In this document: positions 4,963-27,350 of the stretch, in pieces
Layout: every line of letters starts with the position of its first letter
Position numbering within the stretch: the first letter of the stretch is position 1
Source: Armatimonadota bacterium
Lineage (GTDB): Bacteria; Armatimonadota; UBA5829
Length of the DNA stretch: 34,124 nucleotides
Assembly: GCA_026392045.1 (NCBI GenBank)
Contig: JAPLCU010000192.1
Coordinates: forward strand, 1 to 34,124
Reading direction: 5' to 3'
Notes under the pieces: generated by a model
Database searches by the model: none
Told to the model about the DNA's origin: nothing
Seen by the model: only the letters and a program-made list of their open reading frames with translations
Translations under genes and position numbers: made by a program

Positions 4963-5018
4963 CAAGGTAATTATGCCTGATTTGCGAAGTAGTATGACAT
5001 GAATATTTGAACGGCAGG

Positions 5019-5217
5019 CTTCGGCATCAGGATACCGAAGCAAATAATATTTGAACGGCAGGCTTCGGTATCAGGATACCGAAGCAAATAACGGCACGCT
5101 TCGGCATCAGGATACCGAAGCAATATTTTAACGGCACGCTTCGGTATCAGGATACCGAAGCAAATAACGGCACACTTCGGCATCAGGATACCGAAGCAAC
5201 TAAGAGGGATATCGAAG
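5019..5217. repeat. Tandem array of five palindromic hairpins
   Basis: Five 22-bp palindromes, CTTCGG[C/T]ATCAGGATACCGAAG, lie at 5019-5040, 5063-5084, 5099-5120, 5139-5160 and 5175-5196. A degenerate half copy (GGATATCGAAG) is at 5207-5217. Each can form a 9-10 bp stem (some copies have a C-A mismatch). Spacers are short and recurrent: variants of GCAAATA, ATATTTGA and ACGGCA[G/C]. The array starts 56 bp upstream of the NB-ARC start codon, so it could sit in that gene's leader or promoter region. Confidence 0.9.
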
Positions 5218-10891: not shown

Positions 10892-12562
10892 CTATTTCCC
10901 AAAAGGCACGACGGTCAGCAATTCATAACTTGTTGGGGTTGATGTCCCGACAATGCCAAATCTGCCAACTTTATGTGAGATCACAATTACAGATTTCATA
11001 TCCGGGTCGGCCTTCTCAGCAAAAGTATCGACTATTTGACCAATGTCACCGAAGACAAGAAACTCAGATTGGTTCGGCAAGTATTTCTTAACCAGTTGGA
11101 AGCCCTCGGATGACATCTTATCGTTTGTTTCGTATACACTGATAACGTGCTTGGCGGCGCCTGGCACACCTAAGCTCAAGATCAACTTGTCTCCCATCAT
11201 TACCTCAGAAAGATAATCTTTGTCGATGGAAGCCAGGAAACCTGGTTGGCCGGCGATATTGGTGGGCTTAACAGTCACCCCGCCCATTGTCGCCATCACC
11301 AAATGCAGTTTTTTCATGGATTCAGTCATGACATCAGGTTTATCGACCGTAAGCACAACATTCAGCGCACCGGGAAATCCCTGCGGCTTTTCTGGCGCCT
11401 TGGGCACATAAAAAATCTGTAAAGATTTGATTCTGTCCAAAACATCCTTGCTGATGTCCAATCCCACAGCCTCTTTCACCTGTGCAAACGCTTTGTCCAT
11501 CTCGGCCTTTGCGCTGGGATTCTTTTCGATCTGCTTTTTGTATTGGGTCCAAGTATCCCTGAAATTGTTCATCGAGATCAAGATCGCAGCGTCTTTCGGA
11601 GCGCCTGCCATCAGTGTATAAATGCTGGAGGTCTTGCCTGTTATTCCACTGTCTTTGGTAATGCCGCGCGTTGTGAATGTCAGCCCATCCGCAGTGGCTT
11701 CCGCTGTGCAGACTGTGGAAATGTTGTTTTCAATGCCCTCTTTAAGATTATCCGCCGTGCCGGGAGGCGCCATAGCAGATATCACCTGCAACATAGGTCC
11801 CACGAGCTTATAAAGATTCCCGCCCGAATAATATGACGTGGCGAAGGCAGCAGAGGTATTATTGCGAAGGCTGGTGTAGTTCTTTTCGGCGAGAAGACTC
11901 GGCTTGCCTTGAGCTACATCCACCATCTTCTTGAAGGCATTCTCACTATTTGTAATTGTGATTGAGTTCTTAACCGCTCCCACATAGAACACAAGCTCCG
12001 CCGCGCTAAACTGGGTCGGAATGTCGCCCATTGGATTTTTTGTGCTTATGCGTAAGCAAGATTCGCCAGCATACTCGAACTTGCTGAAAGTAATCTTGTT
12101 CTTCGTGAGCTGGTTCTCGATAATGGTCATAAGCGCTTTCGCTTCACCATTGCTCTTTATGCCTATGGCTCCTGCCATCTCGGGCGCTGCTCCAGCCATT
12201 TCGGTGAGCACAGCAAAAGCGCCAGTGCTGTTCAAATGCTCAAGAACGTCTTTCTCGACATCCAACCCCAACTGCTTGTTGATCTCAGCGATATCTTTCT
12301 TCTCGATCTTAATACCAGCTTCTTTGAACATTTCGACGGTATACTTTAGAGCCGCTTTCTTATCAGCGGTGGATGTGGCGTCAATCGTGATAGCGAATGT
12401 CGCTTCCTGAGGAATAAATGCAGCCGGATCATTTGGCTTCATTTTGCCAAGTATCATGTATGCTGCGACCGCCGCAACGATCACCAGCGCCGCCAACACC
12501 AATATTGGTGTGCGTTTTTTTGACTTCGGTTTTTCTACGACAACATTGACTTGCTCTTCCAT
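10892..12562 (-). CDS. DUF3352-like membrane-anchored protein
   Basis: Protein of 556 residues with a short cytoplasmic lysine-rich N-terminus, one membrane helix (about 18-39, TPILVLAALVIVAAVAAYMI) and a large outside domain. The domain begins PNDPAAFIPQEATFAITID, the pattern of DUF3352-type proteins, whose function is not established. Repeated segments such as DIAEINKQLGLDVEKDVLEHL and AQVKEAVGLDISKDVLDRI suggest an internal duplication. The start at 12562 is preferred over the upstream in-frame ATG because AAGGGGGAACC precedes it and the membrane helix follows at the usual distance. It is a single-gene unit, divergent from the glycoside hydrolase gene. Confidence 0.6.
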   Translation of the reverse strand: MEEQVNVVVEKPKSKKRTPILVLAALVIVAAVAAYMILGKMKPNDPAAFIPQEATFAITIDATSTADKKAALKYTVEMFKEAGIKIEKKDIAEINKQLGLDVEKDVLEHLNSTGAFAVLTEMAGAAPEMAGAIGIKSNGEAKALMTIIENQLTKNKITFSKFEYAGESCLRISTKNPMGDIPTQFSAAELVFYVGAVKNSITITNSENAFKKMVDVAQGKPSLLAEKNYTSLRNNTSAAFATSYYSGGNLYKLVGPMLQVISAMAPPGTADNLKEGIENNISTVCTAEATADGLTFTTRGITKDSGITGKTSSIYTLMAGAPKDAAILISMNNFRDTWTQYKKQIEKNPSAKAEMDKAFAQVKEAVGLDISKDVLDRIKSLQIFYVPKAPEKPQGFPGALNVVLTVDKPDVMTESMKKLHLVMATMGGVTVKPTNIAGQPGFLASIDKDYLSEVMMGDKLILSLGVPGAAKHVISVYETNDKMSSEGFQLVKKYLPNQSEFLVFGDIGQIVDTFAEKADPDMKSVIVISHKVGRFGIVGTSTPTSYELLTVVPFGK

Positions 12563-12722
12563 TAATGGTTCCCCCTTAAATATGAGCGAACAATTGGCCC
12601 GTAGTGCGCCAAAAATAACTCGCCACTTGCCACTGTATTCTACACGCGCACGCATGAATCCTTCCGTTATATGAAAATTGCCATCGGAAGATTCAAAACA
12701 AGAATACCAACGCCAATAAAAC

Positions 12723-12731
12723 TGCTATAAT
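12723..12731 (+). promoter_or_regulatory. Extended -10 promoter element ahead of the MITE and glycoside hydrolase gene
   Basis: TGCTATAAT matches the extended -10 form TGnTATAAT exactly. No convincing -35 is visible, which extended -10 promoters tolerate. Its predicted transcription start falls at about 12738, the left edge of the 202-bp element, so the element would be transcribed as a leader of the glycoside hydrolase mRNA. Confidence 0.4.
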
Positions 12732-12736
12732 GTGTG

Positions 12737-12938
12737 GGGTGCATCCCATGTTTATGACAGTCAACAATTTTCATCACGGAAGCACGGAATTTGTGAATCA
12801 TGGAATGGAGCAATCAAAAAGTTCTTGTGTTCAGCGAAGCCGCACGCGCCATTTAATTGTCGAATCGAATCGTTTCTGTGCTTCCTCTATTCCGTGTTTC
12901 CGTGATTGTGTTTCTTTCCATCAATGTGGGACGCACCC
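12737..12938. mobile_element. 202-bp MITE-like element with a 9-bp target duplication
   Basis: The ends are inverted: GGGTGCATCCCATGTTTATG on the left, and on the right (reverse complement) GGGTGCGTCCCACATTGATG. A second inverted pair lies further in, ATCACGGAAGCACGGAAT (12773-12790) against 12889-12906, with one mismatch. The element is bounded by TAATGTGTG (12728-12736) and TAATGTTTG (12939-12947), an 8/9 direct repeat exactly abutting both ends. It has no coding capacity, so it is a non-autonomous element. The family of the mobilising transposase is not known; 9-bp duplications are made by several IS families. Confidence 0.75.
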
Positions 12939-12982
12939 TAATGTTTGTTGATGCTTGACACATTGCAAGAGGTTATTGAAAG

Positions 12983-15076
12983 ATGAATACGAAGACTTTT
13001 GGCACGCCTAAGTATAGGTTGGATATCGAATGGGATGAACAGATCGGCAATATAACACTCACCGACATATATTCCAAAGTGGCTTTTGCCGACAGCCAAT
13101 ACCGATATTCCGCATTTCTGGAATATGAGGACAACATCGTCGATCTTGAAGGCCTTTATGAGCCAACGTTCGAGGAAGAGACTCCCGACAGAGGCGGCGT
13201 GATTGTCACCATCAGCGGATATTTGGGCGAGCCCGGCGGCCCATTGCTCATCAAGCTCAGCCATCGCCTGTATATCCCTGAGGACGAAGATTTTCTTGAA
13301 GAGCGAATACTTCTGCACAATGAAGGCAGAATAGATATTGTGCTGCGCGGTTACAGGTTCGGCTTTCGCAAAAAGCTCCAAATGCCCAAGCGCTATGGCG
13401 GCCCTGGCATTGATATAGAAGATTATAGGATTGTCGCGCTGCCTTTCAGGCTGCAGCCGGATGGAACCAAGTATGACTATCAGTTGGATGATATTTACCA
13501 TGGCCGCTACCAGAGCGCCCAGTTCTTCAATCCGGCTCGCCTTGTGCAGGAGGTCGTCGACAAAGGCAGATCTCGCTCTGAAGGATGGGCCTGGACCGAT
13601 GGCGAAAATGGCTTCTTGATAGTAAAATACAACCCGACCAACATAGAATACTCTATGCTCGACACTGAGCGCCGTGATGGCGAAACCTACCTGAGCTTTG
13701 GCGGGGCCTCACCATCGCTCTATAATGAACCAGTAGAGGTCAGAAACTTGCGGGCGAATGCCGAAGTCGGTTTCGGCATCACAAAATATCATTTTTATGA
13801 AGGTCTGTGGCGGCGGGGCGCATACATTTTTCGGGAATATATGGACAGCTTGGGGCACAGTCGACCAGAAGATTATTCGCCAATGCTTCTCTGGGATTCT
13901 GAATACGAAATCGGCAGGCATGGGAGTGACCCGGATCAATTAGCAGCCAATTACAGCCTGGAAGCCCTGGAGAACGAGGCTAGAAATGCCCGGGAGATGG
14001 GTTGCGAAGCTATTTTCCTAGGCCCCGGCTGGGAAACCTCCGAAGGCAGCTCTATCTGGGATACCGAACGTCTGGGTGAGGTAGACCAGTTTGTTGCCCA
14101 CATGCGTGACGAATACAGCCTGAAAGTTGGCTTCAAGACCATTGGCAGGAATTACTCAGACGACTTCCGCGGACTGTATCGCAGGCGACCAGATGGCAGC
14201 ATCGGGTTCTATGCGCCGTATCACAATAAGCCATTCTATGAACCCTGCTATTGCACCCTTAAGTATCAGCAGATTCAGATGGGCAGAATCGGCAAGTTGT
14301 TGGATGCCGGGATGAGCTTTGTTTCCTTTGATGAATTCGATTGGCGAGGGTCATGCGGTGACGCAACTCATGGCCATCCCACGCCAACCACCCCCAATAT
14401 GCACTCGATTGCGGTGGCCGATATCGTCAGGGGAGTGCGCGAGAAATTTCCACAGGTAAGTATCTCAATGCACGATCCGGTCTGGCCTTGGGGAATACGA
14501 TATTTGCCGGCATATTATTTACACGGGCTTGGGGAATCATTCGATGAGCTGTGGGGATTCGATTTCACCTGGAACGCTCTGGACGATCTTCTCTCCGGTA
14601 AAGCTCTCAGTTTGTTCTATTATAATCTGGCGTATGATATTCCTCTCCACCTCAACATCAGCATGGAGAACGATAATGACAACTGCCTCGCGTTCTGGTG
14701 GTATGCTTCAACCGTCAGGCACTTGGGCATAGGCGGCAGGAAGGGCAATAACATCAGATTTGCGGCATACAGGGCTGCCATACAAGAATACAAGGCATTG
14801 AAATGCTTATATACTCAAGGCACATTCTATGCACTGGATGAACTCACACACCTGCACGCTGATATCGAATCCGGGCAAGCGGTAGTGAATGCATTCAATC
14901 TGACAGACAGGGCGATGTCGCGTACGGTCGAAATACGGCTTCCCGAGATCGGTTTCTTCGAGAAAATGGAAGTTCAAGGGGTCCAACACGAAGTGCAAGG
15001 CAGTAAGTTGGTTCTCAACCTGGAGATTCCGCCGTTCAGCCCGCTGCTCATAAAGCTCAGCGCAGTTCGAGACTAG
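12983..15076 (+). CDS. Predicted glycoside hydrolase (alpha-galactosidase-like, tentative)
   Basis: Protein of 697 residues without a signal peptide, so probably cytoplasmic. Residues 1 to about 280 look like a beta-rich N-terminal domain. A TIM-barrel-like region follows, with strand-like segments CEAIFLGPGW, KVGFKTIG, MSFVSFDEFDW (acidic D450, E451, D453), VSISMHDPVWPWG and LHLNISMENDND. The final 100 residues are again beta-rich (AVVNAFNLTDRAMSRTVEIRLPEIG). This three-part plan and the acidic strand end fit clan GH-D-type enzymes (GH36/GH27), but I cannot assign a family or substrate. AGAGG lies about 10 nt before the ATG. The MITE and an extended -10 lie upstream. The oligoendopeptidase gene follows after 94 bp. 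Confidence 0.5.
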   Translation: MNTKTFGTPKYRLDIEWDEQIGNITLTDIYSKVAFADSQYRYSAFLEYEDNIVDLEGLYEPTFEEETPDRGGVIVTISGYLGEPGGPLLIKLSHRLYIPEDEDFLEERILLHNEGRIDIVLRGYRFGFRKKLQMPKRYGGPGIDIEDYRIVALPFRLQPDGTKYDYQLDDIYHGRYQSAQFFNPARLVQEVVDKGRSRSEGWAWTDGENGFLIVKYNPTNIEYSMLDTERRDGETYLSFGGASPSLYNEPVEVRNLRANAEVGFGITKYHFYEGLWRRGAYIFREYMDSLGHSRPEDYSPMLLWDSEYEIGRHGSDPDQLAANYSLEALENEARNAREMGCEAIFLGPGWETSEGSSIWDTERLGEVDQFVAHMRDEYSLKVGFKTIGRNYSDDFRGLYRRRPDGSIGFYAPYHNKPFYEPCYCTLKYQQIQMGRIGKLLDAGMSFVSFDEFDWRGSCGDATHGHPTPTTPNMHSIAVADIVRGVREKFPQVSISMHDPVWPWGIRYLPAYYLHGLGESFDELWGFDFTWNALDDLLSGKALSLFYYNLAYDIPLHLNISMENDNDNCLAFWWYASTVRHLGIGGRKGNNIRFAAYRAAIQEYKALKCLYTQGTFYALDELTHLHADIESGQAVVNAFNLTDRAMSRTVEIRLPEIGFFEKMEVQGVQHEVQGSKLVLNLEIPPFSPLLIKLSAVRD

Positions 15077-20704: not shown

Positions 20705-20825
20705 GTAAGAGTTCAGTCTTAGTGTATTTGTCATTCCGAACTTGATTCGGAATCTAAGCCTTAAGCGTAACAGATCCTGAATCGAGTTCAGGATGACATG
20801 TAATTCCCGCAAGACTGAACTCTCT
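20705..20825. mobile_element. 121-bp MITE/REP-like element, copy 1
   Basis: The terminal inverted repeat AGAGTTCAGTCTT / AAGACTGAACTCT is 13 bp and perfect. The interior holds two inverted hairpin arms (GTCATTCCGAACTTGATTCG... and its diverged partner ending CAGGATGAC). The sequence is identical to copy 2 at 22210-22330. Flanks are GAAGGGAAA (20696-20704) and CAAGGGAAA (20826-20834), an 8/9 direct repeat. It has no coding capacity. It lies upstream of the DAHP synthase gene. Confidence 0.85.
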
Positions 20826-20899
20826 CAAGGGAAAAGCGAAACTGGATTTCGAGCACAACTTAATGTATACTATTAATATCGAAATTTGGAGGTCGGGTA

Positions 20900-21928: not shown

Positions 21929-21957
21929 CGAGAAAATACGTTGGGTTCGCTGTTTCG

Positions 21958-21990
21958 ATGGGACGGGAAATCTGTTCCCGTCCCATTTTA
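21958..21990 (+). terminator. Intrinsic terminator of the DAHP synthase gene (first of two)
   Basis: ATGGGACGGGAA (21958-21969) pairs perfectly with TTCCCGTCCCAT (21975-21986) across ATCTG, followed by TTTTA. It begins 29 bp after the stop codon. Confidence 0.88.
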
Positions 21991-21995
21991 CTGCG

Positions 21996-22028
21996 ATGGG
22001 CAGGGAAATCTGTTCCCGTCCCATTTTA
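21996..22028 (+). terminator. Second, duplicated terminator copy
   Basis: A copy of the preceding hairpin 38 bp downstream, with the left arm altered to ATGGGCAGGGAA (two mismatches) and the right arm TTCCCGTCCCAT plus TTTTA unchanged. It arose by tandem duplication and probably works as a back-up terminator. Confidence 0.75.
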
Positions 22029-22209: not shown

Positions 22210-22330
22210 GTAAGAGTTCAGTCTTAGTGTATTTGTCATTCCGAACTTGATTCGGAATCTAAGCCTTAAGCGTAACAGATCCTGAATCGAGTTCAGGATG
22301 ACATGTAATTCCCGCAAGACTGAACTCTCT
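22210..22330. mobile_element. 121-bp MITE/REP-like element, copy 2
   Basis: Identical over its whole length to 20705-20825. It is flanked by a perfect 9-bp direct repeat CTAACACCT (22201-22209 and 22331-22339), with the same 13-bp terminal inverted repeats. The target was a heptamer array. It ends 18 bp before the ileS promoter -35. Confidence 0.9.
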
Positions 22331-22347
22331 CTAACACCTTCCCTCAG

Positions 22348-27220: not shown

Positions 27221-27248
27221 GCTTCGCGGGCGCTTTTTGCCCCGAAGC
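27221..27248. terminator. Bidirectional hairpin after lgt
   Basis: GCTTCGCGGGC pairs with GCCCCGAAGC (one bulged C) around a TTTTT-containing loop. It is the first of three stem-loops in the convergent lgt/lptA gap. Confidence 0.55.
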
Positions 27249-27257
27249 AGGTATGAG

Positions 27258-27350
27258 AACTAAACTCTTCGGGACGAAAAACAGTCCCGAAGCATAGCAA
27301 GCATAGCAACTAAACTCTTCGGGACGAAAAACAGTCCCGAAGCATAGCAA
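27258..27350. repeat. 43-bp direct repeat, each copy carrying a CTTCGGGAC hairpin
   Basis: Two identical 43-bp units (27258-27300 and 27308-27350) each carry CTTCGGGAC-gaaaaaca-GTCCCGAAG (27267-27292 and 27317-27342), a perfect 9-bp stem. They are spaced by GCATAGC. They lie between convergent lgt and lptA and may terminate both. The CTTCGG/CCGAAG outer stem followed by GCA matches the palindromes at 5019-5196. Confidence 0.9.

Follow-up and report, generated by a model that had tools for sequence, protein, structure and literature searches.

Short non-coding elements with ISKra4-type ends tend to lie a fixed distance upstream of promoters in an Armatimonadota genome

Introduction

According to Guerillot et al. 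(2014, PMC3942029), prokaryotic Mutator-like transposases generate target repeats of 8-9 bp, and the insertion sites of TnGBS, ISLre2 and some of the ISKra4 group precede the -35 of sigma-A promoters by 15-17 bases. In that survey, the ISKra4 IS belong to the p-MULT 4 Mutator-like transposases and ISLre2 and TnGBS to p-MULT 3, and the phylum considered here was not listed for p-MULT 4. Bacterial MITEs, for example MITEAba12 (PMC6382973), are short, non-coding, IS-derived elements with inverted ends and multiple genomic copies. We found no description of ISKra4-derived MITEs with promoter targeting in the open-access literature, which is not proof of absence.

Here, we describe a 202-bp element in a stretch of 34,124 nucleotides (the window) from an Armatimonadota genome assembled at 3.55 Mb in 206 contigs (G000). 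The element resembled ISKra4 IS in its terminal repeats, which start with GGG and end in C, its 9-bp duplications, its placement 15-17 bp ahead of a -35, and the presence in the same genome of a family transposase with matching ends; unlike those IS, it codes for no protein. The fixed -35 spacing and the one preferred orientation are also known from ISLre2 and TnGBS, although these come from different phyla and the transposase found in our genome, on contig C165, scored 93.9 against ISLre2, below the cut-off of 200. With MITEs of the MITEAba12 type the element shared its short length, lack of coding content, inverted ends, genomic copies and apparent derivation from an IS, whereas its sequence was different and it was accompanied by a likely ISKra4-family partner and a fixed promoter spacing. 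Our main reading, to which we assign a probability of roughly 0.8, is that an ISKra4-family transposase moved this MITE, with a 9-bp duplication, to a site some 16 bp ahead of the downstream gene's -35.

Structure of the 202-bp element

The element occupied positions 12737-12938 of the window on the + strand, defined as the orientation in which its 3′ end faces the promoter, and began with GGGTGCATCCC and ended with GGGACGCACCC. The terminal inverted repeats were 20 nt long and 80% complementary; the left one (12737-12756, + strand) was like the right end of the C165 IS, and the right one (12919-12938, - strand) like its left end. A second, inner inverted repeat had arms of 33 nt that were 76% complementary, the left (12773-12805, + strand) with CACGGAA motifs and the right (12874-12906, - strand) pairing with it. 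Target duplications of 9 bp abutted both ends, TAATGTGTG at 12728-12736 and TAATGTTTG at 12939-12947, and matched at 8/9 positions. A sequence-only reading of the window had proposed a MITE-like insertion on the basis of inverted ends, an inner inverted pair and this abutting duplication, all of which were present. There was no ORF of at least 80 aa inside the element. Short, non-coding, bounded by 20-bp terminal inverted repeats and a 9-bp duplication, and dispersed in copies, the 202-bp element is a MITE.

Copies in the genome and in relatives

The same reading had anticipated copies elsewhere, and many further matches were recovered across the genome. The family comprised about a dozen copies, seven full-length and several partial; a sequence model built from the seven full-length copies scored these at 150-184 bits and ranked the partial copies next. 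Target duplications of 9 bp (8/9 or 9/9) flanked five of the seven full copies, that in the window included, and the other two had none.

A perfect 9-bp duplication also surrounded a cargo-bearing copy at C28:23152-24833 (L031:553-2234). This 1.69-kb element was considered as an autonomous IS and rejected, as it carried a gene for an FGE-sulfatase-domain protein and no transposase; it resembles a MITE copy interrupted by about 1.5 kb of foreign DNA. The FGE-sulfatase-domain protein had a possible PEP-CTERM tail. At another locus (L002, C102:20687-20885), two tandem MITE fragments shared one internal breakpoint, each with TCGAGTAAT following it, which suggests rearrangement.

In 60 relatives, a simple search at the DNA level returned no full copy of the element. 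The sequence model, which is more sensitive, located relatives of the element in seven further genomes from the class, of which G018 was the richest with 27 matches, and some of these elements had GGG-type ends and inner CACGAAA repeats. A brute-force search for ends plus duplication among such elements, in G018 and in other genomes, recovered one locus under overly strict criteria. Five related elements of G018 (L128, L129, L132, L133 and L135) carried CACGAAA arrays together with internal periodic repeats of the AACGCGGATAAACGCTGATAAGCGCAGATAAA type.

Solo palindromic ATCACGGAARCACGGAAT units that lacked GGGTG ends were present at seven loci of the window's own genome (L015, L017, L018, L020, L024, L025 and L030), some of them directly 5′ of start codons. 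The ATCACGGAARCACGGAAT motif had 41 matches in this genome, and only one other of the 151 phylum genomes searched had it.

The predicted fold of the element was more stable than that of shuffled sequences (-71.6 versus -49.5 kcal/mol, z -4.96), a strong hairpin that arises because the ends are symmetric and the inner CACGGAA repeats inverted. An Rfam search with the element yielded no match. The stable fold, the paired changes in the stem and the occurrence of the inner CACGGAA palindromes alone near start codons would each suit a repeat under selection as a regulatory module of RNA or DNA (a REP-like unit or an attenuator) and not a transposable element; we nonetheless consider such an origin very improbable, given the target duplications and the matching IS, the lack of a common gene context among the copies, and the concentration of changes in the terminal repeats. 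Specifically, four of the six pairs changed on both sides fell in the terminal stem (columns 6-9), and no structure conservation in excess of that attributable to the terminal repeats was found. Such a concentration would be expected where a single transposase has to accept both ends. The paired changes, being mostly terminal, therefore offer no independent support for RNA function, and we rejected covariation as an argument for it.

A likely partner IS

A search with the terminal motifs led to contig C165 and a 432-aa ORF (L034:265-1563) that encodes an ISKra4-family transposase (NCBIfam NF033572, 277.9 bits against a cut-off of 205); a Pfam search with this protein gave no match. The IS around it had GGGTG...GCACCC ends, GGGTGTGCACGCCAAATTCATGGTC on the left and GGCGTGCACCC on the right, so that the IS with matching GGGTGC ends called for by the sequence-only reading exists in the same genome. 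The ends of the MITE copies were GGGTGCACGCC...GGCGTGCACCC, or GGGTGTGTCC.../...GGGACACACCC, or mixtures of these, and the MITE 5′ end resembled the right end of the C165 IS and the MITE 3′ end its left end. No clear target duplication was found in the flanks of the C165 IS. Four related IS in the class (L061, L064, L066 and L067) combined GGGTG...C(A/G)CCC ends with perfect 9-bp duplications. At L061, the transposase was 80% identical to that of C165 (NF033572, 277.4 bits), the ends were GGGTGCACGCC and GGCGTGCACCC, and CATCACCCA was present at both flanks. Based on these similarities, the C165 IS is likely the MITE's partner.

An alternative is that the element was moved by a different transposase, absent from the assembly, and that its ends only look similar to ISKra4 ends. 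The assembly contains a single ISKra4 transposase gene, that of C165, and with 206 contigs it may miss repeats; moreover, the MITE ends are of at least two types (CACGCC and TGTCCC), and the C165 IS closely matches the first only. Against this, the GGGTG ends, the 9-bp duplications and the 16/39-bp rule described below jointly match the ISKra4 elements of the class, and the same traits match the published behavior of the group (PMC3942029), and we regard an absent mover as unlikely. Most likely, an ISKra4-family (Mutator-like DDE) transposase recognized the GGGTG...CACCC ends of the 202-bp MITE, moved the non-autonomous element and left the 9-bp target duplication, and the mover was probably the C165 transposase or a close relative.

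Position of the elements relative to promoters

Flanks of the MITE copies (11 on the 3′ side and 10 on the 5′ side) were scored for promoter elements with E. coli-type weights that we supplied and that were not trained on this phylum. Under these weights, the mean -35 score of the 11 3′ flanks peaked at offset 16 and the mean -10 score at offset 39, corresponding to a spacer of 17, and these peaks were matched at any offset by 8 of 1000 (-35) and 4 of 1000 (-10) dinucleotide shuffles; the 10 5′ flanks, scored in the same manner, had no such promoter peak. With the window copy left out, a good -10 was present at exactly 39 in 5 of 10 flanks, versus an average of 0.33 per offset, while the -35 signal was weaker, with a good -35 at exactly 16 in only 2 of 10. 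The averaged peaks at 16 and 39 thus agree with insertion 15-17 bp upstream of the -35, and the per-copy -35 matches are weaker. Three related copies in other genomes, chosen by eye and illustrative only, also fitted, with TTGACC at 17 and TATCAT at 40 (L117), TTGACT at 16 and TAGAAT at 40 (L128), and TAGACA at 16 and TAGAAT at 39 (L134). Collectively, the MITE family tends to insert at a fixed distance upstream of promoters, about 16 bp before the -35.

Candidate promoters at the window locus

The gene downstream of the element (12983-15076, + strand) encodes 697 aa, and its family orthologues align from residue 1-6. It had been labeled a glycoside hydrolase from its letters, and this label is unconfirmed, with no Pfam, NCBIfam or PDB match. 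The divergent neighbor (10892-12655, - strand) encodes a 587-aa DUF3352 protein (PF11832, 99.4 bits). No empty site was found, and in the relatives examined the family orthologues of the 697-aa gene never adjoined a DUF3352 gene.

Exactly 16 bp past the element's 3′ end was a candidate -35 of the downstream gene, a perfect TTGACA (12955-12960, + strand), in keeping with the family rule. The expected -10 region (GAAAGA / AAAGAT, 12978-12984, + strand) was a poor match and overlapped the start codon, and AGAGG (12968-12972, + strand), a candidate ribosome-binding site, preceded that codon by 10 bp. In three family relatives (L044, L046 and L047), TTGACG-17-TACAAT/TAAAAT preceded the same gene and ended 6 bp before its start codon; the upstream region of L059, from Armatimonadetes bacterium SKW42, was the same as that of L044. 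Taken together, the family rule, the TTGACA at 16 bp and the promoters of relatives indicate that the gene's own promoter probably lay downstream of the insertion point. The element would have inserted in a single orientation, leaving roughly 16 bp between its 3′ end and the TTGACA at 12955, a position that would reflect the known preference of the transposase group that contains ISKra4; the TTGACA would be, or have been, the -35 of the gene, and the insertion was presumably largely neutral.

The sequence-only reading had placed the element simply downstream of the gene's promoter, pointing to an extended -10 that ends five bases before the insertion. That sequence, TGCTATAAT, was indeed present as a candidate at 12723-12731 (+ strand). 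The placement fared less well, as the family sits about 16 bp upstream of a -35 and the TTGACA beyond the 3′ end fits this arrangement. A leader model in which TGCTATAAT is the working promoter, with an mRNA that starts at the element and a leader of about 245 nt whose long hairpin may affect expression, draws on the perfect extended -10 five bases 5′ of the element, on the AGAGG that falls outside the long hairpin, on a region without a terminator-like site and on the lack of a good -10 in the downstream promoter. However, TGNTATAAT occurred at near chance frequency (one occurrence in the 34-kb window versus 0.73 expected), no -35 preceded TGCTATAAT, the family targets promoters beyond its 3′ end, the promoter of relatives directly precedes the gene, and the terminal repeats account for the conservation of structure. 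We hold the leader model to be plausible, at a little under even odds. It is compatible with transposition of a MITE, because it concerns the present effect of the insertion and not its nature. The perfect TGCTATAAT upstream of the element may thus have taken over as promoter or may be a matter of chance, and transcription may run from it through the element.

A second MITE family

Two copies of another repeat, previously measured at 121 bp, were located in the window at 20705-20826 and 22210-22331 (GTAAGAGTTCAGTC...GACTGAACTCTCTC), and the family numbered 40 or more copies genome-wide, many of them near-identical. Among the copies that were read, TAAGAG was always preceded by G, a base that often disagreed with the 3′ copy of the duplication. 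This G therefore belongs to the element, which is 122 bp long with 8-bp duplications, perfect at 10 of the 13 sites read. In the 3′ flanks, the -10 score at offset 39 had a mean of 1.62, versus a maximum of -0.55 among 500 shuffles, and a -10 was present at this offset in 11 of 22 flanks; the -35 signal was split between offsets 9 and 16 and did not exceed shuffles. A search for a partner IS through the ends of the 122-bp family found no transposase. Several of these ends were close to where contigs stop, a location typical of repeats collapsed in assembly.

That one transposase type served both families had been suggested from a shared 9-bp duplication. The duplication is not shared, being 8 bp in the 122-bp family, but both families obey the 39-bp rule, and one insertion rule in two MITE families unrelated in sequence favors one transposase type. 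A broader reading is that both families inherited promoter finding from a Mutator-like transposase and placed long hairpins at a fixed distance before many promoters, that related elements in other genera of the class share ISKra4-type ends around inverted CACGRAA repeats, and that some copies, such as that in the window, may be part of a gene's transcription signals; we advance this whole only tentatively, as somewhat less likely than not.

With these data, a transposase group already known to insert before promoters gains a MITE family and a likely partner IS. Two unrelated families that follow one 39-bp rule provide dozens of natural sites in a single genome for studying promoter finding. 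The data also correct how such sites are read, in that the relevant promoter normally follows the element's 3′ end and is not the sequence apparently interrupted.

Finally, short tandem units, each with a hairpin, were present elsewhere in the window at 5002-5197, 21956-22028 and 27246-27345 (e.g., CTTCGGTATCAGGATACCGAAG).
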